Of a DNA stretch of 64,000 nt, positions 43,172 to 51,675 are shown piece after piece. How positions within the stretch are numbered: position 1 is the first letter of the stretch; the number at the start of each line of letters is the position of its first letter. The notes beneath the pieces are model-generated. The model was not told the origin of the DNA, ran no database searches, and worked only from the letters and a program-made list of their open reading frames with translations. Made by a program: the position numbers and the translations under genes. This DNA is from Actinomycetota bacterium (lineage in GTDB: Bacteria > Actinomycetota > Actinomycetes > Nanopelagicales > Nanopelagicaceae), in NCBI GenBank assembly GCA_009698615.1, contig WLPU01000001.1:62001-126000 (forward strand), written 5' to 3'.

Positions 43172-44296
43172 TTACCCTAAGATCAATTCCGAATATTTTG
43201 AAGCCATGAAAGATAATGAGAATTGCTCCAACCATGGCCGCGGGACCTCAATTTTTGGTATTGAAACTCCCTTGATTTGATCAGACAGACCTCTATAAAT
43301 CGCCTCTGGGTCACGATAAGGGACGATCGTTGCGTAACTGCCAGCATTAGGCAATTCATTTAAGATCCCAGAAACTGTAAAAATTGATGGAACTGCTGCG
43401 GCGAGAGCTTCTATATATACAAGTCCGAAAGACTCATCTTCGGGACCATTCGGGACGTGCACGAAAGCGTCTAATCCCCATAGAAAATCAGGAATTGAAT
43501 TGTTTGACTCCTCTATAACAAAAGCGTCGCTTTCTATAGAATTGAGAATGTTGAAAACTGAATCATAAGAATCTGAATGCGCTCCGACGATGTGTAATCT
43601 GGTTTGTGGAAACTCTCCGTGCAGTCGTACGAATGCTTGAGCTATGTATTCAATTCCCTTCAGCTCAGTCATCCGTGAAATCACGCCAATCCGGAACACC
43701 TTGACTCTCGTTTGAATTTCTTCCCTAGGAATTTCATTTGATACAGCTATGCGTTGAAATCGTTTTAGATCAATTCCATTGTAGATGACTCGAATCTTTT
43801 CTGATCTTGCATTTTCATCCTCGATTAAAACTTTCTTAACAAGGAGTGAAACGGCAACAATGTCTGTTGCTAGAAAATTAACAGCTCGGTCGAGAAGATT
43901 TCCTAGTCTCTTTTTGTACTTTATGTGAAAATTTGAGTAATGACGAATAAAGATTCTTTTCTTAACTCGAAGTACCTTGGCGCAAAATATCCCAATTATT
44001 GTTGCAAATTGCCCGCTGGTAAAAACGGTCGATGGCTTGGCTTTAAATATATAAAAAAATAGTAAAAGAAATAGAGGAAGACTTCCGTACTTCCCTCGTG
44101 ATCGCAGATTGATGGGTCGAACTCCCAGAGATTCCAGTTCAGAAAGAATTTTTGACTTGTTTGACCCTATGACAATTACCTCTATAACTCCGCCCCCCGC
44201 TTTGACCTTCGCAAGAATCGAAACCAATTGAGGACTTGCATCCACCTCTGACAGGATCGCGAGAATGCGCGGATTCCCGCTGATTTGCTTCCTCAT
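43172..44296 (-). CDS. glycosyltransferase family 4
   Basis: 374 aa. The N-terminal GT-B domain includes SGQFATIIGIFCAKVL and IRHYSNFHIKYKKRLGNL; the C-terminal donor domain has VIYNGIDLKRF, FRIGVISRMTELKGIEYIAQAF and the GPEDESFGLVYIEALAAAVPS stretch with the E-x7-E pair. ATG 44296 follows GGGGGA at good spacing; TTG 44299 is a weaker option. TAATCT at 44309-44314 is a plausible -10. The gene is divergent from the ABC exporter. Confidence 0.87.
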   Translation of the reverse strand: MRKQISGNPRILAILSEVDASPQLVSILAKVKAGGGVIEVIVIGSNKSKILSELESLGVRPINLRSRGKYGSLPLFLLLFFYIFKAKPSTVFTSGQFATIIGIFCAKVLRVKKRIFIRHYSNFHIKYKKRLGNLLDRAVNFLATDIVAVSLLVKKVLIEDENARSEKIRVIYNGIDLKRFQRIAVSNEIPREEIQTRVKVFRIGVISRMTELKGIEYIAQAFVRLHGEFPQTRLHIVGAHSDSYDSVFNILNSIESDAFVIEESNNSIPDFLWGLDAFVHVPNGPEDESFGLVYIEALAAAVPSIFTVSGILNELPNAGSYATIVPYRDPEAIYRGLSDQIKGVSIPKIEVPRPWLEQFSLSFMASKYSELILG

Positions 44297-44393
44297 CAAT
44301 TTCCCCCAAGATTAGGCGAATGATCTACCAAAGATAATTCAATATTCTACTCGTTGAACGTTCTGGATTTGCTGAATCTTTGAAAAAGATCAG

Positions 44394-44406: not shown

Positions 44407-44433
44407 ATGAGATTGAAACTTGCTGTTGTATGA
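44407..44433 (+). CDS. putative 8-codon leader ORF coupled to the ABC exporter
   Basis: ATG 44407 opens an eight-residue frame (MRLKLAVV) that ends in TGA 44431-44433. The ABC exporter ATG is 44430-44432, so the two overlap as ATGA. The mini-ORF start has a good leaderless -10, whereas the exporter start has no SD, so ribosomes could enter at the mini-ORF and restart. Too short for any homology test by eye; chance remains possible. Confidence 0.4.
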   Translation: MRLKLAVV

Positions 44434-46265
44434 GAAGTATTCGACAACACTGGAAACTTAGTACTCTAGGACGCGCCGCGAGCGTTCTAGATTCCCTTGA
44501 CCGACGAAAAATGTATTTTGTAACCTTAATTCAAATCTTACTAAGCTTGTTGGATTTGCTTGGTGTTGTGTTGATCGGAGTGCTAGGAGCATTGGCTGTT
44601 AGCGGAGTTCAATCTCTTCACCCCGGAACGAGAGTTGGATACGTATTAACTTTCTTTCACATAACTCACTTTTCGTTTACTCAACAGATCGCGTTCATTG
44701 GAGCAATTGCAGTCACATCGCTTGTCGGAAGAACCATTTTCTCAATTATCTTTACACGCAAAATACTTTTCTTTCTAAGTCGGCGCGGCGCAAAAATTTC
44801 AGCAAATTTGGTATCACGTTTACTTTCGCAACCCATGTTGCTTGTTCAAAAACTAACAAGTCAAGAAACTCTTTATTCTGTAACCAACGGCGTAGAGGTC
44901 ATAACTTTAAATATTCTCGCTGTAGCTGTTAGCCTAGTCTCAGATTTCGCCTCTCTCGTAATTCTCTTAATTGGACTATTTGTCGTGGATCCGATTATTT
45001 CTATAGGAACATTGTTAGTTTTTGGAGTCATCGGCACAGTGCTGTATTTCTTTATGCATGTACGTGCACGCATAATTGGTTTACGCAGTTCTGAGCTACG
45101 AATTCGCAGTAACGAAAAGATTATCGAAGTATTTAGCTCTTACCGTGAGTCTGTTGTTAGAAACCGACGAGACTTCTACGCACGGGAAATTGGAAGGATG
45201 CGGTTCGATTTGGCGGATGTACTCGCCGAGGGAAGTTTTATGCCGTATGTCGGAAAGTATGTAATTGAGACGACAGTTGTTTTAGGTGCAGTTTTGCTGG
45301 GTGCCGCCCAGTTTATTTTACAAGACGCTACCCATGCGGTCGGCACGCTAGCGGTCTTTCTAGCAGCTGGTAGCAGAATTGCACCAGCTGTTTTGAGATT
45401 ACAGCAAGGCGCTGTCACTATTCGATCAAATTCCGGTGCAGCGAATGTGACTTTAGAAATGATCGAAAATTTAAGTGAGGTAAAGCATTTACCAAACGTT
45501 GACGACACTGTAGATATTATTCATGAAGGATTTGATGCGTCGGTGAATATGGCTTCAGTATCATTTAAGTACTCCGGGCGAGACGAAAGTGCGATCTCAG
45601 ATGTTTCGCTTAGAATTCCTGCTGGTGCCTCTGTCGCAATTGTGGGACCTTCGGGATCTGGAAAAACAACTCTTATCGATAACTTACTTGGGGTAATAGA
45701 TCCAGATGAGGGTCACGTTTCAATATCGGGTCAATGCCCAAACGAAGCAATTTCTAGATGGCCTGGAGCAATTGCATATGTTTCGCAAGATGTAGTAATT
45801 TCGAATGGGACGATCCGGGAAAATGTAGCCTTAGGGTATCCAATCGAAGTGGCCACTGAAGAATTGGTTCTCCGTGCCTTAGAAGTTGCGCATTTAGATC
45901 AATTTGTTTCCGAGTTACCTTTTGGTATCGACACACCTGTTGGTGAAAGGGGGACACAAATTAGTGGGGGGCAACGCCAGAGGTTGGGCATTGCTAGAGC
46001 CATGTTCACTCGTCCTCATTTGTTGGTATTAGATGAAGCTACGAGTTCCCTAGACGGGGAGACCGAAGCAGCGATTTCTTCTGCCATACATGCCTTGCGT
46101 GGTTCAACGACTGTTGTCATGATTGCACATCGTCTATCCACCGTGAGAGAAGCGGATGTCGTTGTTTATTTGGATCGTGGAAAAGTAATTGCGACAGGTT
46201 CATTTACGGAAGTTAGAAATCGAGTTCCAGATTTTGACCGGCAAGCAAAATTGATGGGAATTTAG
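44430..46265 (+). CDS. ABC exporter, fused permease and ATPase (MsbA/PglK type)
   Basis: 611 aa. About six transmembrane helices fill residues 20-320; the nucleotide-binding domain follows with Walker A GPSGSGKTTL (about 406-415), the Q-loop YVSQDVV, signature ISGGQRQRLGIARAMF, Walker B LLVLDEATSSLDG and the H-loop AHRLS. Half-transporters of this type work as dimers and flip lipid-linked oligosaccharides or lipids. As the only complete exporter in the island it is the best candidate to move the glycan across the membrane (inference). Confidence 0.88.
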   Translation: MRSIRQHWKLSTLGRAASVLDSLDRRKMYFVTLIQILLSLLDLLGVVLIGVLGALAVSGVQSLHPGTRVGYVLTFFHITHFSFTQQIAFIGAIAVTSLVGRTIFSIIFTRKILFFLSRRGAKISANLVSRLLSQPMLLVQKLTSQETLYSVTNGVEVITLNILAVAVSLVSDFASLVILLIGLFVVDPIISIGTLLVFGVIGTVLYFFMHVRARIIGLRSSELRIRSNEKIIEVFSSYRESVVRNRRDFYAREIGRMRFDLADVLAEGSFMPYVGKYVIETTVVLGAVLLGAAQFILQDATHAVGTLAVFLAAGSRIAPAVLRLQQGAVTIRSNSGAANVTLEMIENLSEVKHLPNVDDTVDIIHEGFDASVNMASVSFKYSGRDESAISDVSLRIPAGASVAIVGPSGSGKTTLIDNLLGVIDPDEGHVSISGQCPNEAISRWPGAIAYVSQDVVISNGTIRENVALGYPIEVATEELVLRALEVAHLDQFVSELPFGIDTPVGERGTQISGGQRQRLGIARAMFTRPHLLVLDEATSSLDGETEAAISSAIHALRGSTTVVMIAHRLSTVREADVVVYLDRGKVIATGSFTEVRNRVPDFDRQAKLMGI

Positions 46266-46267
46266 CG

Positions 46268-47128
46268 CTAGATTAAAGTGAGAAGCTTTTTCCCATAGTC
46301 GGATCCTTTTAGCGCCATTGCGTTTTCTGAAAGTTTTTCAGAGTTTATTAGCCCTAAGCGCCAAGCAACCTCATCAGGACTTCCGATGAGAAGCCCTTGG
46401 CGTTCTTGCAAGATTTGAACAAAACTACCTGCCTCGAGAAGGCGATGAGGTGTTCCGGTATCTAACCAAGCAGTTCCGCGAGACCAAAATCGAGTGATAA
46501 GTCTACCTTCAGGGATATATGAATTAAGGAGATCGACAATCTCCAATTCTCCTCGCACAGAAGGAACTATTTTCTTCACGATTTTGAATACATCATTGGG
46601 AAACATATAAAGCCCAGATAACGCCACATTGCTAATGAAATCCTTAGGTTTCTCAATTATTCTTAAAGTTAAACCTTTCGAGTCCAATTCCACGACACCA
46701 AATTCGGAGGGATTAGATACCTCTGAAACGAAACAGATTGCATTTTTGCTGTCAGGGGTGAATAACACTTCTTGATCAAAATCAGGCCCATAGAAAAAAT
46801 TATCTCCTAGAATTAGGACTACACCCTTGGAGGTGTCTAGCAAACCTTCAGCAACATTGAAGGCATCAGGAATCCCCTTTGGTTCATTTTGAACTGCATA
46901 AGAAATATTGATTCCCCATTGGGAACCATCTTTCAATAAGTTTTGGTGGGCCGCCGCAGAATTTGGAGTCGTAATTACCACAATATCTCGCACACCACTC
47001 AGCATCAGGGTCGACAACGGGTAATACACAAGCGGTTTGTCGTATACTGGTAATAATTGTTTGCTGGTGGCGATCGTCATTGGCCACAGGCGAGTGCCAT
47101 TTCCACCCGATAAGAGGATTCCTTGCAT
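46268..47128 (-). CDS. rmlA: glucose-1-phosphate thymidylyltransferase
   Basis: 286 aa; makes dTDP-glucose from dTTP and glucose 1-phosphate. GILLSGGNGTRLWPMT (RmlA has LAGGxGTRL, here LSGG), SKQLLPVYDKPLVYYPLSTLM, LILGDNFFYG metal site and EKPKDFISNVALSGLYMF are all characteristic. The start codon at 47126-47128 directly abuts the ATG of rmlB on the other strand. The C-terminus ends 3 nt from the stop of the convergent ABC gene. Confidence 0.95.
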   Translation of the reverse strand: MQGILLSGGNGTRLWPMTIATSKQLLPVYDKPLVYYPLSTLMLSGVRDIVVITTPNSAAAHQNLLKDGSQWGINISYAVQNEPKGIPDAFNVAEGLLDTSKGVVLILGDNFFYGPDFDQEVLFTPDSKNAICFVSEVSNPSEFGVVELDSKGLTLRIIEKPKDFISNVALSGLYMFPNDVFKIVKKIVPSVRGELEIVDLLNSYIPEGRLITRFWSRGTAWLDTGTPHRLLEAGSFVQILQERQGLLIGSPDEVAWRLGLINSEKLSENAMALKGSDYGKKLLTLI

Positions 47129-48094
47129 ATGGAAGACAATAGCAAGTTTAAGCGCCTTTTAGTAACGGGCGGAGCGGGATTTATTGGTTCAGAATATGTT
47201 CGATCGAGTTTAAGTGGGACTTTGTACGGTGGGAAACCAGAAAAGATCACTGTCGTAGATTCCCTTACATATGCTGGAAACAAGAAACGACTTTCTGAAG
47301 TTTGGGACAACAAGGAATTTGCTTTTGTACAGGCGGATGTCCGCGATCAAGGCGTTATTTCTGAATTAATTGATGCGCATGATGTGGTCATACACTTTGC
47401 TGCAGAATCTCATGTGGATAGGAGCATTGAAAATAGCCAGGATTTCATCGAGACAAATGTCCTAGGTACGCATCGCGTGCTTCATGCAGCACGTGAATTC
47501 AATAAAACCGTAGTCCTGATTTCGACCGATGAAGTTTACGGATCCATAAATGAGGGTGCTGCGAACGAACAGACAATTCTAAATCCATCCTCTCCCTATT
47601 CTGCAAGCAAGGCATCAGCGGACTTACTTGCATTGTCGTTTGTCACAACTTACGGCCTTGATGTGCGAGTAACGCGCTGTGTAAATAATTACGGGAAATA
47701 TCAAGATCTAGAGAAGTTAATTCCTAAGATTGTTCACAACCTCAGAAGTGGGCTGAAAATTCCTTTGTATGGGACCGGACTCAACGTCCGAGATTGGATT
47801 CACACGAAAGATCACTGCGATGCGATAGCTCGCGTTCTTCATATTGGGGCTCCCGGCGAGATCTACAACATTGGCGGGGATGAAAGCTATAGCAATATTG
47901 AACTTGCTTATATTTTGTTATCTTATTTCAATCTAGAAAAAGATCAAATTGAATTTGTTCAAGATCGCCTAGGCCATGATATGCGGTATGCCGTAGATTC
48001 AAGTAAAATAAAATCGCAACTGGATTGGAAACCACGTCATAGACTTACCGATTCAATTTCTGAAATCGAAAAAGGAATTGTTTTTTTATCCTAA
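47129..48094 (+). CDS. rmlB: dTDP-glucose 4,6-dehydratase
   Basis: 321 aa; converts dTDP-glucose to dTDP-4-keto-6-deoxyglucose using bound NAD. LLVTGGAGFIGSEYVR, FAAESHVDRSIENSQDFIETN, STDEVYGSI with catalytic Thr-Asp-Glu, YSASKASADLL, RCVNNYGKYQDLEKLIP and GTGLNVRDWIHTKDHC are the RmlB signatures. ATG 47129 is chosen over TTG 47123, which would overlap rmlA; AGAGGA at 47113-47118 is a possible RBS within rmlA. Ends with a 4-nt tail overlap with rmlC. Confidence 0.95.
   Translation: MEDNSKFKRLLVTGGAGFIGSEYVRSSLSGTLYGGKPEKITVVDSLTYAGNKKRLSEVWDNKEFAFVQADVRDQGVISELIDAHDVVIHFAAESHVDRSIENSQDFIETNVLGTHRVLHAAREFNKTVVLISTDEVYGSINEGAANEQTILNPSSPYSASKASADLLALSFVTTYGLDVRVTRCVNNYGKYQDLEKLIPKIVHNLRSGLKIPLYGTGLNVRDWIHTKDHCDAIARVLHIGAPGEIYNIGGDESYSNIELAYILLSYFNLEKDQIEFVQDRLGHDMRYAVDSSKIKSQLDWKPRHRLTDSISEIEKGIVFLS
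47136..47141 (-). promoter_or_regulatory. -10 box (TATTGT, minus strand) of rmlA inside rmlB
   Basis: On the minus strand TATTGT ends 7 nt before the rmlA ATG. With no gap between rmlA and rmlB, this promoter has to lie within the first codons of rmlB. Confidence 0.4.
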
Positions 48095-48642
48095 AGTTCT
48101 GCTAGGGGGTAAGAATTAAGATTAGGTGCGTCCGCATCCTTGTCAGATAGCACTAAAGGCTCTTCCCACTCGATTCCTAACGTTTCATCTAACGGATTGA
48201 TTCCTAGTTCGTCTGCAGGATTGTAGGAGCGATCGAAGCAATAGAGAACCGAACTGTCGCCGCCTAAACTCTGCATACCATGCCCAACACCTGCTGGAAT
48301 CAAAATGAGTGTGGGATTAGCCCCATCTAACTCAATCCTTGTGATATTTCTAAAAGTAGAAGAATCTGGCCTTAGATCGACTAAAACATCTAAGACTCGA
48401 CCTGCAATACAGGTAAGCACTTTTCTTTGCGGTGAATTTTTCTTGGTCCGATGGATCCCTCGGACTGACCCAGATTTCGACACCACGAAATTGATTTGAA
48501 CTGGTGAAAAATTAGCCCATTCCTCAACGCCTTGGACTGATGCTTTATTCCAAAGCTCCACAAGAAATCCGCGCGCATCTTCGTGAGGAGTGAGCTGTAA
48601 AGTAAATGCCCCGTCTATTTTAGGAACCGGCACAAAATTCAT
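48091..48642 (-). CDS. rmlC: dTDP-4-dehydrorhamnose 3,5-epimerase
   Basis: 183-aa cupin. Landmarks are ARGFLVELWNK, SVRGIHRTKKNSPQRKVLTCIAGRVLDVLVDLR with the catalytic His in RGIH, LILIPAGVGHGMQSL and the C-terminal YNPADELGINPLDETLGIEW. It epimerises C3 and C5 of dTDP-4-keto-6-deoxyglucose. No rmlD follows; instead it overlaps by 4 nt the DegT aminotransferase, which suggests that a 4-amino sugar rather than rhamnose may be the end product, unless rmlD lies elsewhere. Confidence 0.88.
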   Translation of the reverse strand: MNFVPVPKIDGAFTLQLTPHEDARGFLVELWNKASVQGVEEWANFSPVQINFVVSKSGSVRGIHRTKKNSPQRKVLTCIAGRVLDVLVDLRPDSSTFRNITRIELDGANPTLILIPAGVGHGMQSLGGDSSVLYCFDRSYNPADELGINPLDETLGIEWEEPLVLSDKDADAPNLNSYPLAEL

Positions 48643-49784
48643 TGAATGCCTCCAGACATCGCTTGAACTACGACCCCTGCTACAAATTCGACATCTTCAA
48701 TGACAAGCCCGACATGCTGAGGCAATAGGAGAGTAGTTGCGGCAAATTCATCAGAATTTAAGAATTCTAGATTTTGCGCCCCGTAAAGTGGCACTCGATT
48801 CAAGGGGAAATAGCGAAAAGTTGTATAAATTCCATGATCGTTTAGATACTCTGCAAGGTCATCTCGTTTGGATGCAGGCACAGAAACTGGAAAGAAATAG
48901 TGAGAGAGGTTATCCGTAAAATCTTCTAGAGGCATTCCGATCGAGGGGACATCCTTTAACAGTTTGAAGTAAAGCTCCGCATTTCGTTTGCGAATTTTCA
49001 AATTTTCATTTAGTTTACGCAGCTGAACTCTTGCTATGGCCGCAGATATATCGTTCATAATGGACCTACGTCCCGGATAGGAAACATCAAACTCCCACCA
49101 TCGTTTTTGCTGTCCAGCCGAAGACGCGCCAGATACATTCGAAAGCCCCATATACATCCGTTCGCGCAGTGCTGCAGCCTTCTCGGTAGATTTCGCAAAG
49201 ATAACTCCACCATCTCCTGCTACAACCATCTTCATCGCATCCAACGACCAAACCCCAAAATCTCCAAAGGTTCCGCAAGGTTGATCCTGGTAAACCGAAC
49301 CCATCGCGCCTGCGGCATCTTCGATCAAGACGATCTCCCTCTCGGAAGCCCAACTAGCGATCTTGTGTATTTCAGCAGGCAGACCGCCGAAATGCTGGAT
49401 TAAAATTGCCTTAGTTTTAGGAGTTACTACAGCCTTGATCCTTTCGAGTGTTGCATTTCCAGTTTTTGAATCCACATCACAGAAAACGGCCTTCATTCCC
49501 TGTCCGACGATCGCATTTGCTGCCCCTACGAAACTGATTGTTGGAAGGATCACCTCATCTCCCGCTTTGGCAACTAAATTAAGAATTTGGAACATCGCCT
49601 CAGTGCAGGAATTTGTTGTTAAAACGTTTTGTGGTAGCACACCTAGGAACCCCGCGAATTCCTTCTCAAAGGAATCTACTTCCTGTCCCCGGCCCGGCCA
49701 ATTTCGTTCAAAAACCCCAGAAATCGCGGCGAGTTCATCTTCGCCCAACCTTGGCTGGAAGACCTGGATCATTCGCTTCTCCAT
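48639..49784 (-). CDS. DegT/DnrJ/EryC1/StrS-family sugar aminotransferase
   Basis: 381 aa PLP enzyme that aminates keto-sugars on nucleotides. NSCTEAMFQILNLVAKAGDEVILPTISFVG (N-terminal block), EDAAGAMGSVYQDQPCGTFGDFGVWSLDAMKMVVAGDGGVI with the Schiff-base Lys after SLDAM, and RRSIMNDISAAIARVQL are typical. Some relatives use Lys to His changes as dehydratases; here Lys is present. Likely substrates are dTDP-4-keto or 3-keto-6-deoxyhexoses from RmlA-C. Confidence 0.88.
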   Translation of the reverse strand: MEKRMIQVFQPRLGEDELAAISGVFERNWPGRGQEVDSFEKEFAGFLGVLPQNVLTTNSCTEAMFQILNLVAKAGDEVILPTISFVGAANAIVGQGMKAVFCDVDSKTGNATLERIKAVVTPKTKAILIQHFGGLPAEIHKIASWASEREIVLIEDAAGAMGSVYQDQPCGTFGDFGVWSLDAMKMVVAGDGGVIFAKSTEKAAALRERMYMGLSNVSGASSAGQQKRWWEFDVSYPGRRSIMNDISAAIARVQLRKLNENLKIRKRNAELYFKLLKDVPSIGMPLEDFTDNLSHYFFPVSVPASKRDDLAEYLNDHGIYTTFRYFPLNRVPLYGAQNLEFLNSDEFAATTLLLPQHVGLVIEDVEFVAGVVVQAMSGGIQ

Positions 49785-49857: not shown

Positions 49858-50690
49858 TCAAATTCTTCCGCTGGCCATGTATTCAGTCCCTCGATCTTCT
49901 AAAACTTCTGGTAGGAGGTACCAAGCGTCCCAGGAGAATTGAGAGTTGATCGGATCGAGGATATAGCCTTCACCTTCGAGGAGTCTTCTGACGGAGACTC
50001 TGTCACTCCGAAAATTATGGTTTACTGAAATCAATTTTGGCTTAAATCGTAACCAATCATTGGTTTTTAGCACTTCTAGTTCGTCACCCTCGCAATCGAT
50101 CGATAAATATTCGAAGTCATCTGGCACACAATTCATTACAAAGACTTTGGAGAGCGTAGAACCCTCAACTCGAATAGTCCTACCAGAAGTTTTGAAAAGT
50201 CTGTGGTGCTTTTGATCCGCAGCGTTTGTTGTGTTGAATTCAGGTTCAATTGCGATTTCAAGCTTTACGCTACTTTTACTGCTGATGGCAACTGGAATAA
50301 CTGCACATTTTCTAAATTTTCGAAGGAGTTGGACGGATTCAGGGGAAGGTTCAATTAATAATCCATTCCAACCAAAGTCAGTTTCTAGCAGGAATGTATT
50401 ACTCAAATATTTTGGATTACAAGCGCCTACGTCGACAAACCACCCCCCCCGAGACCTTTAAGCCGATAAAGGACCCATAAGTCTTGTTGAAGTTGCGCTA
50501 CAGACCTTCCTTGATTTAAGAGACAGTAACCCTGCCACCGAAGCTGCTCAGAAGTTGGCCCTTTCGAAAATGCAGAATCAAGTCCAGAATTCAAAACTAA
50601 TCGAAACATCATAAACTTTACAAATTTCAAAGAAAAAAATGCATAAAGGATTCTACCGAAAACTAATTCAAAAAATTTCTGAATCCTCAC
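49858..50690 (-). pseudogene. FkbM-family methyltransferase split by a G8 tract (possible phase-off gene)
   Basis: Two frames read as one FkbM methyltransferase. From GTG 50690 the first part runs to QQDLWVLYRLKGLGGGG and then leaves frame; the other frame supplies WFVDVGACNPKYLSNTFLLE, EPSPESVQLL, EYLSIDCEGDELEVL and GYILDPIN, the classical SAM core. The switch occurs exactly at eight G residues (minus strand, 50443-50450). Nine or six G would restore one frame of about 277 residues. This may be slipped-strand phase variation, a recent mutation, or a sequencing error; the core without the first 95 residues (TTG 50406) would lack motif I. GATACT (50697-50702) is 6 nt before the GTG. Confidence 0.75.
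50443..50450 (-). repeat. homopolymer tract (G8 on the coding strand)
   Basis: Eight consecutive C on the plus strand, inside the FkbM gene. It is the longest G/C homopolymer I noticed; other G/C runs (at 34437, 38975, 41338, 45966) reach six and do not break frames. Confidence 0.9.
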
Positions 50691-50721: not shown

Positions 50722-51675
50722 TCAATGGCTACCAAGCAAAAAGAATTTACCAGCTCTTTTAAAGTCCCTGAAAACTAAGCACTTTGCACATTCATAAAAT
50801 ATATAAAGTCGCGTCGAGATTCTAATTCGACTTAAAATGCGGGCAAGCATTAGTTTTCGAACTTTGAATAGCGATGACATTTCATTGTAAGTAGCAGATT
50901 CTTCTATAAGTCGACTTAATTTCGCCTCAGGGTTCTCAGAAAGGCTCTTGTGATGCCGTCTGTATTGGCCAAGCTCCTCATCCACCAACAAGAGATCACC
51001 CTTGAGAAGGAAGATCTGAAACAAGATTTCAATGTCTGATGTCACTAATAGATCCATCCTGAATGGTGATTGCAGCAGAAAATCTCTTTTCCACATTATC
51101 AAGGGAAAGTATAAGAAATCACCAATTGCGATCATATTTATCGCAATCTTCCAATTAATGAGAGTCGTTACTGGGTCATGCTTGGCATTCCCCCCTCTTG
51201 TCGATTGAAGAGTACTTGCCCTCCAGATTAGGTCCTTTGTTTTGTCAGGTAATGGACGAAAAATAAGGCCATTGCTGTCGATAACTTGTGTTCTTGATTG
51301 GATAAGTGCTGCCGTTGGATACTTCTGGCTCACCGCCAATAATCTCTCCAAATATCCAGGCAGAAGGCGATCATCATGTCCTAAGAAGATAGTCCACTTG
51401 GCATTAGAAAGGGTCTTTGCGATTTCTAAAGTCTTGTTTAGACCCAAATTCCTAGGATTAGAAACATAAGAAATCCTCGGATCTTTTAAAGATTCGATAA
51501 ATCCTCGGGCGATTAAGTCATTCGGACTATCATCGATTACTAAAAGCCGAAAATTTGTGAAAGTTTGCGCACGAACACTTTCTACGGCTTCGCACAGATA
51601 ATCAAATGCACGGTAATAAGGAATAATGATGTCCACGGCTGTTGGAACATTAATGCTGTCCGCGAAATCATTCAC
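50722..51675 (-). CDS. glycosyltransferase family 2
   Basis: 317 aa. VDIIIPYYRAFDYLCEAVESVRAQTF starts the GT-A fold, then VIDDSPND, NLGLNKTLEIAKTLSNAKWTIFLGHDDRLLPGY with the DD metal motif, and an acceptor half with FPLIMWKRDFLL. The final 40 residues are hydrophobic and basic, perhaps membrane-binding. GTG 51675 has TAATCT 6 nt upstream. This is the last gene of the island before the helicase flank. Confidence 0.87.
   Translation of the reverse strand: MNDFADSINVPTAVDIIIPYYRAFDYLCEAVESVRAQTFTNFRLLVIDDSPNDLIARGFIESLKDPRISYVSNPRNLGLNKTLEIAKTLSNAKWTIFLGHDDRLLPGYLERLLAVSQKYPTAALIQSRTQVIDSNGLIFRPLPDKTKDLIWRASTLQSTRGGNAKHDPVTTLINWKIAINMIAIGDFLYFPLIMWKRDFLLQSPFRMDLLVTSDIEILFQIFLLKGDLLLVDEELGQYRRHHKSLSENPEAKLSRLIEESATYNEMSSLFKVRKLMLARILSRIRISTRLYIFYECAKCLVFRDFKRAGKFFLLGSH

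Follow-up and report, generated by a model that had tools for sequence, protein, structure and literature searches.

In Campylobacter and Neisseria, surface-glycan genes are phase-variable through poly-G tracts; each genome has many of them, they recur at the same sites of orthologous genes, and their switching has been demonstrated. Among Actinobacteria, on/off slippage at poly-G has been described for the sortase-pilus genes bbr_0113ab and bbr_1889ab of Bifidobacterium breve: the G11 tract occurs in length mixtures while G10 is far less variable, the mixtures were measured (37% G11, 59% G12), and pili were seen in the in-frame strains (PMC9187656). In Propionibacterium (Cutibacterium) acnes, 54 variable tracts were reported, almost all of them G/C, and their variation is mostly clade-specific, which suggests a slow accumulation of changes and not active switching (PMC4746626). 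Here we consider a G8 tract in a glycan locus of a streamlined aquatic actinobacterium (Nanopelagicaceae), located in the 64,000-nucleotide stretch of DNA that was analysed (the “window”).

On the coding minus strand the tract reads G8, on the plus strand C8, and two reading frames of an FkbM methyltransferase gene meet in it (Table 1). From its GTG start the upstream frame reads ...SVAQLQQDLWVLYRLKGLGGGGLST and ends SVAQLQQDLWVLYRLKGL; at the G8 it departs from the frame of the gene and runs into a stop only a few codons further on, so that it reads ...DLWVLYRLKGLGGGGLST followed by the stop. The frame of the FkbM core begins GGWFVDVGACNP... and reads GGWFVDVGACNPKYLSNTFLLE... down to its own stop. 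The frame carrying WFVDVGACNPK is offset from the upstream one by -1 or +2 nt. Both parts of the sequence-only reading of this break, namely that the N-terminal part and the SAM core meet exactly at eight G and that adding one G or removing two would merge them, are therefore borne out by the alignment described below and by the frame arithmetic. In the catalytic frame a stop stands three codons before the tract and the first start codon (TTG, 50406) lies beyond motif I; thus, the full core cannot be made from the catalytic part alone, and an internal start for it is ruled out.

Table 1. The interrupted gene and the surrounding glycan genes (positions in the window)
Feature	Position	Strand	Remarks
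Glycosyltransferase family 4-like	43172..44299	-	
MsbA/PglK-type ABC exporter	44430..46265	+	
Glucose-1-phosphate thymidylyltransferase (RmlA-like)	46268..47128	-	TIGR01207 E 7.8e-100, under cut-off
dTDP-glucose 4,6-dehydratase (RmlB)	47123..48094	+	TIGR01181 above cut-off
dTDP-4-dehydrorhamnose 3,5-epimerase-like (RmlC/FdtA type)	48091..48642	-	PF00908 E 2.6e-46
DegT/DnrJ/EryC1 sugar aminotransferase, PseC/WecE-like	48639..49784	-	Downstream neighbour; PF01041 E 1.2e-77; NCBIfam PseC under cut-off
FkbM methyltransferase, SAM-binding/catalytic part	49858..50449	-	Different frame; PF05050 E 1.2e-16
FkbM methyltransferase, N-terminal part	50427..50690	-	ORF, GTG start 50690, 87 codons, stop at 50427
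G8 homopolymer	50443..50450	-	Junction of the two reading frames
Family 2 glycosyltransferase	50722..51675	-	Upstream neighbour; PF00535 E 5.1e-20

The FkbM identity proposed earlier is supported by a PF05050 match over the SAM-binding core (61.8 bits against a gathering score of 22.7), and TIGR01444 reaches 37.6 bits, 0.1 under its cut-off. The window gene shares with this family motif I (FVDVGA), the DxEG motif, the length and the order of motifs, and differs from it by the break of the frame at the loop before motif I. PF05050 matches occur in 18 of the 296 genomes of the order, the window genome included, and the other matches are 26-37% identical. Homologs were reached only by alignment-based search: scanning the proteins of IMG/VR and of GTDB contigs with the single sequence found no relative, the 20 further genomes of the genus contain no ortholog, and when 150 related genomes were searched at the DNA level the window gene itself was the sole result.

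For comparison, 94 relatives were drawn from the order and from genomes of GTDB, 88 of them scorable, and the two halves were added separately, as fragments, to an alignment of relatives. The Gly of the family motif G-[FY]-F-V-[ED] is where the halves join: the upstream one ends with S-x-x-Q-x-x-Q-D-x-[FW]-V-L-x-x-L (the family motif SQxxQDxFVLxxL immediately ahead of the junction), and the downstream one starts at G-[FYW]-F-V-[ED]. The frame is open across this point in all 88 scorable relatives, whereas that of the window gene is not continuous through motif I. In 71 of 80 relatives a spacing of 14 residues separates Gln-Asp from Gly, a value which the window gene would match with nine Gs; the family spacing thus corresponds to the nine-G state and the sequenced allele is one G short. 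Judged by this alignment and by the codon usage given below, the locus is one FkbM gene, broken once and lacking one base. The longest G/C run at the break point is 2-5 in the 88 relatives, so the tract is not conserved. The comparison of tract lengths suggested by the sequence-only reading accordingly yielded intact genes with no G/C run above five, although at about 30-37% identity, and with no ortholog in the genus, the absence of the tract from these relatives is weak evidence against a conserved contingency locus.

A single G8 is in itself unremarkable, 0.87 being expected by chance in the 64-kb window (dinucleotide shuffles). The window has no other tract of G8 or longer, and within the 1.5-Mb genome no other lies internally, so that long G tracts are rare in it; contig C8 of the same assembly (L010:1-20, G000:C8) starts at a C20 that probably stems from poly-G read ends, an artefact of two-colour sequencing. 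The window holds about 266 homopolymers of at least five, and only the G8 breaks a gene, the other candidate breaks being gene boundaries or antisense noise. The unexpected point is that the only tract of G8 or longer coincides exactly with the only real gene break among these homopolymers.

A consensus or assembly error, with an in-frame tract in the true genome and an ordinary gene, appears to us an improbable source of this break. Homopolymers are the commonest site of such errors, and the artefact-like C20 makes the G calls of this dataset suspect; nevertheless, the other homopolymers of the window, A7, T7 and T8 included, break no gene, which indicates that the assembly is not generally indel-ridden. 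Moreover, the G8 tracts in housekeeping genes of the relatives are in frame, which indicates that G8 is as a rule called correctly in assemblies from this group.

We give even chances to the interpretation that the sequenced copy is an OFF allele of a glycan O-methyltransferase, made by slippage and mechanically able to revert. In this view the locus encodes a single SAM-dependent O-methyltransferase of the FkbM family, about 275-280 residues long, in which the linker before SAM motif I would be Gly-Gly-Gly written in GGG codons, giving G9 when in frame. Replication slippage, in a lineage without mismatch repair of the MutS or NucS type, would drop one G and leave a G8 allele that is OFF, with an 87-residue stub and a catalytic part devoid of a start codon before motif I. 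The same slippage may restore the G, so that the gene would be able to switch, giving cells with and without the methyl group. Both slippage as the cause and its reversibility we infer from the sequence of one allele.

The repair background is consistent with such slippage. None of the 21 genomes in the genus has MutS (control genomes were positive in 11 of 14 cases), and NucS is above the cut-off in only one of the 21, the window genome having a sub-cut-off match and the control Corynebacterium being positive. Mismatch repair therefore seems to be lost or replaced in the genus, and with no MutS and no convincing NucS slippage would go largely uncorrected.

With regard to the features expected of contingency loci, a long homopolymer lies inside the coding sequence and a one-base change toggles the frame, while the gene is otherwise intact: no further stop or shift interrupts its 833 bp, and codon use is gene-like in each half in its own frame only (0.152 bits/codon in the N half and 0.100 in the C half, the other frames being negative, against 0.188 +/- 0.052 in reference genes). 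Conservation of the tract was not found. G8 is also short for a switch tract, since in B. breve G10 is much less variable than G11 (PMC9187656). The earlier proposal of phase-variable glycan methylation is thus supported in part, by the FkbM gene in a glycan locus, the slippage-prone tract and a lineage with no MutS and no convincing NucS, and reversible phase variation of this candidate locus is plausible but unproven.

The same slippage might instead have killed a dispensable, probably horizontally acquired glycan gene, leaving a fixed pseudogene whose OFF state drifts or is selected as a loss. We hold this to be possible, though not probable. Such an outcome agrees with the accessory character of the gene, which has no ortholog elsewhere in the genus (20 further genomes), and with P. 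acnes, where the variable tracts mostly follow clades (PMC4746626); yet the lack of a second lesion and the gene-like codon usage of both halves indicate that the event is recent at most.

Far less probable, in our opinion, is recoding, in which ribosomes (by a -1 shift) or RNA polymerase would slip on the G8 and produce some full-length enzyme with no change of DNA. In the upstream frame, G-GGG-GGT can be read as a slippery heptamer for a -1 shift, but no stable structure is predicted at the usual spacer of 5-9 nt, the predicted fold pairs the G tract with distant Cs and places a separate hairpin about 40 nt farther downstream, and the relatives have no conserved slippery site. A programmed frameshift was rejected for want of a fitting predicted structure.

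Judging from the annotation of its genes, the locus is of the rhamnose/amino-sugar glycan type (Table 1). We attribute a surface-glycan role to the methyltransferase because of these glycan neighbours, and its substrate is most likely a sugar of a surface glycan.

The pattern H-G8 was searched in 296 genomes of the order, giving about 149 tracts in 96 genomes. We examined 139 distinct tracts, of which 87 are G8 and most of the others G9-G10. By coding score, 19 tracts lie inside genes in frame (including housekeeping ones, e.g., a GltB-like protein) versus three true breaks, so that poly-G tracts which break a frame are not a common feature of the family. The automatic breaks L042 and L111, as well as the first-pass ones L087 and L091, proved on inspection to be gene boundaries.

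The two further breaks both affect sugar-type methyltransferases. In another species of the same genus, G8 breaks the frame of a TIGR04325-type methyltransferase (L046/L272, G008:C12:1692-1699) that lies in one cluster with NeuB, cytidylyltransferase and aminotransferase genes; no close second copy of this gene was found for comparison of tract length. In another genus of the family, G8 breaks the frame in the LKVGG-FYVIED loop of a gene (L179/L271, G336:C28:10661) which resembles in sequence the solved methyltransferase 3ssm and demethylmacrocin O-methyltransferase; 3ssm we take to be MycE, and the gene would thus be a MycE-like sugar O-methyltransferase. All three breaks fall in glycine-rich loops (DIGGG, KVGG, and GGG before FVDVGA), and their recurrence in three unrelated sugar-type methyltransferases has a simple reason on offer, the proneness of glycine loops coded by GGG. 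Three being a small number, they suggest either contingency or simply genes that are dispensable and rich in glycine. Tracts of G8-G9 that stay in frame are found in further glycan genes: NeuB (L164/L277), an acyltransferase (L107/L278), a methyltransferase (L187/L273) and a Gfo/Idh gene (L141/L274). The L274 locus belongs to a complete genome (G228:C1:40000-59000), in which a C8 in the Gfo/Idh oxidoreductase gene and a G12 5.4 kb away are found in a nonulosonic-acid-like glycan cluster.

Another position of the tracts is in front of genes. When ORFs of at least 110 codons are counted, about 31 of the 139 are followed at a distance of 1-10 nt by a start codon on the G strand, versus two on the opposite strand; examples are L079, L080, L099, L100, L110, L149 and L187. 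Such a leader poly-G may act in a Shine-Dalgarno-like manner, and its length could tune translation. Leader length differs among species in the MSFSDRQI... gene family (L099 G11, L100 G9, L110 G9, L111 G10, L183 G9), in the membrane protein MVLSPLW... (L079 G10, L080 G13, L116 G9) and in the acyltransferase MFS[ED]TKYRRD... (L149 G8, L187 G10). That this streamlined family, poor in mismatch repair, uses poly-G as contingency elements, both inside sugar methyltransferases, whose glycine-rich loops would supply the tract, and next to start codons, where its length would tune translation, so that cell surfaces would differ between sister cells, e.g., against phages, is a tentative generalisation which we regard as doubtful.

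In abundant streamlined aquatic bacteria, variation of surface glycans is attributed mainly to the exchange of whole gene islands. A poly-G switch, if it operates here, would be a second and much faster route of this variation. The sequence-only reading considered such a switch unusual in a streamlined actinobacterium, which calls for some qualification for Actinobacteria as a whole, where poly-G slippage is documented (PMC9187656, PMC4746626); for the streamlined aquatic lineage, a literature search for Nanopelagicales and phase variation found no report.

The likeness to Campylobacter and Neisseria consists in a G8-G9 tract inside a surface-glycan gene whose frame shifts by one base, but the window genome has one tract and it is not conserved. 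P. acnes is likewise an actinobacterium, with variable tracts that are nearly only G/C, some of them gene-breaking and many located upstream of genes; there the variation is seen among clades, whereas the window locus is known from one allele. The B. breve genes also represent an actinobacterial gene split at a G tract, in which one G added or omitted joins the frames and the downstream part has no proper start; the difference is that they encode a pilin and carry G10-G11 tracts of measured lengths, while the window gene encodes a methyltransferase, carries G8 and is known from one sequence. The locus is a plausible, though unproven, new candidate for the poly-G switching already known in Actinobacteria.
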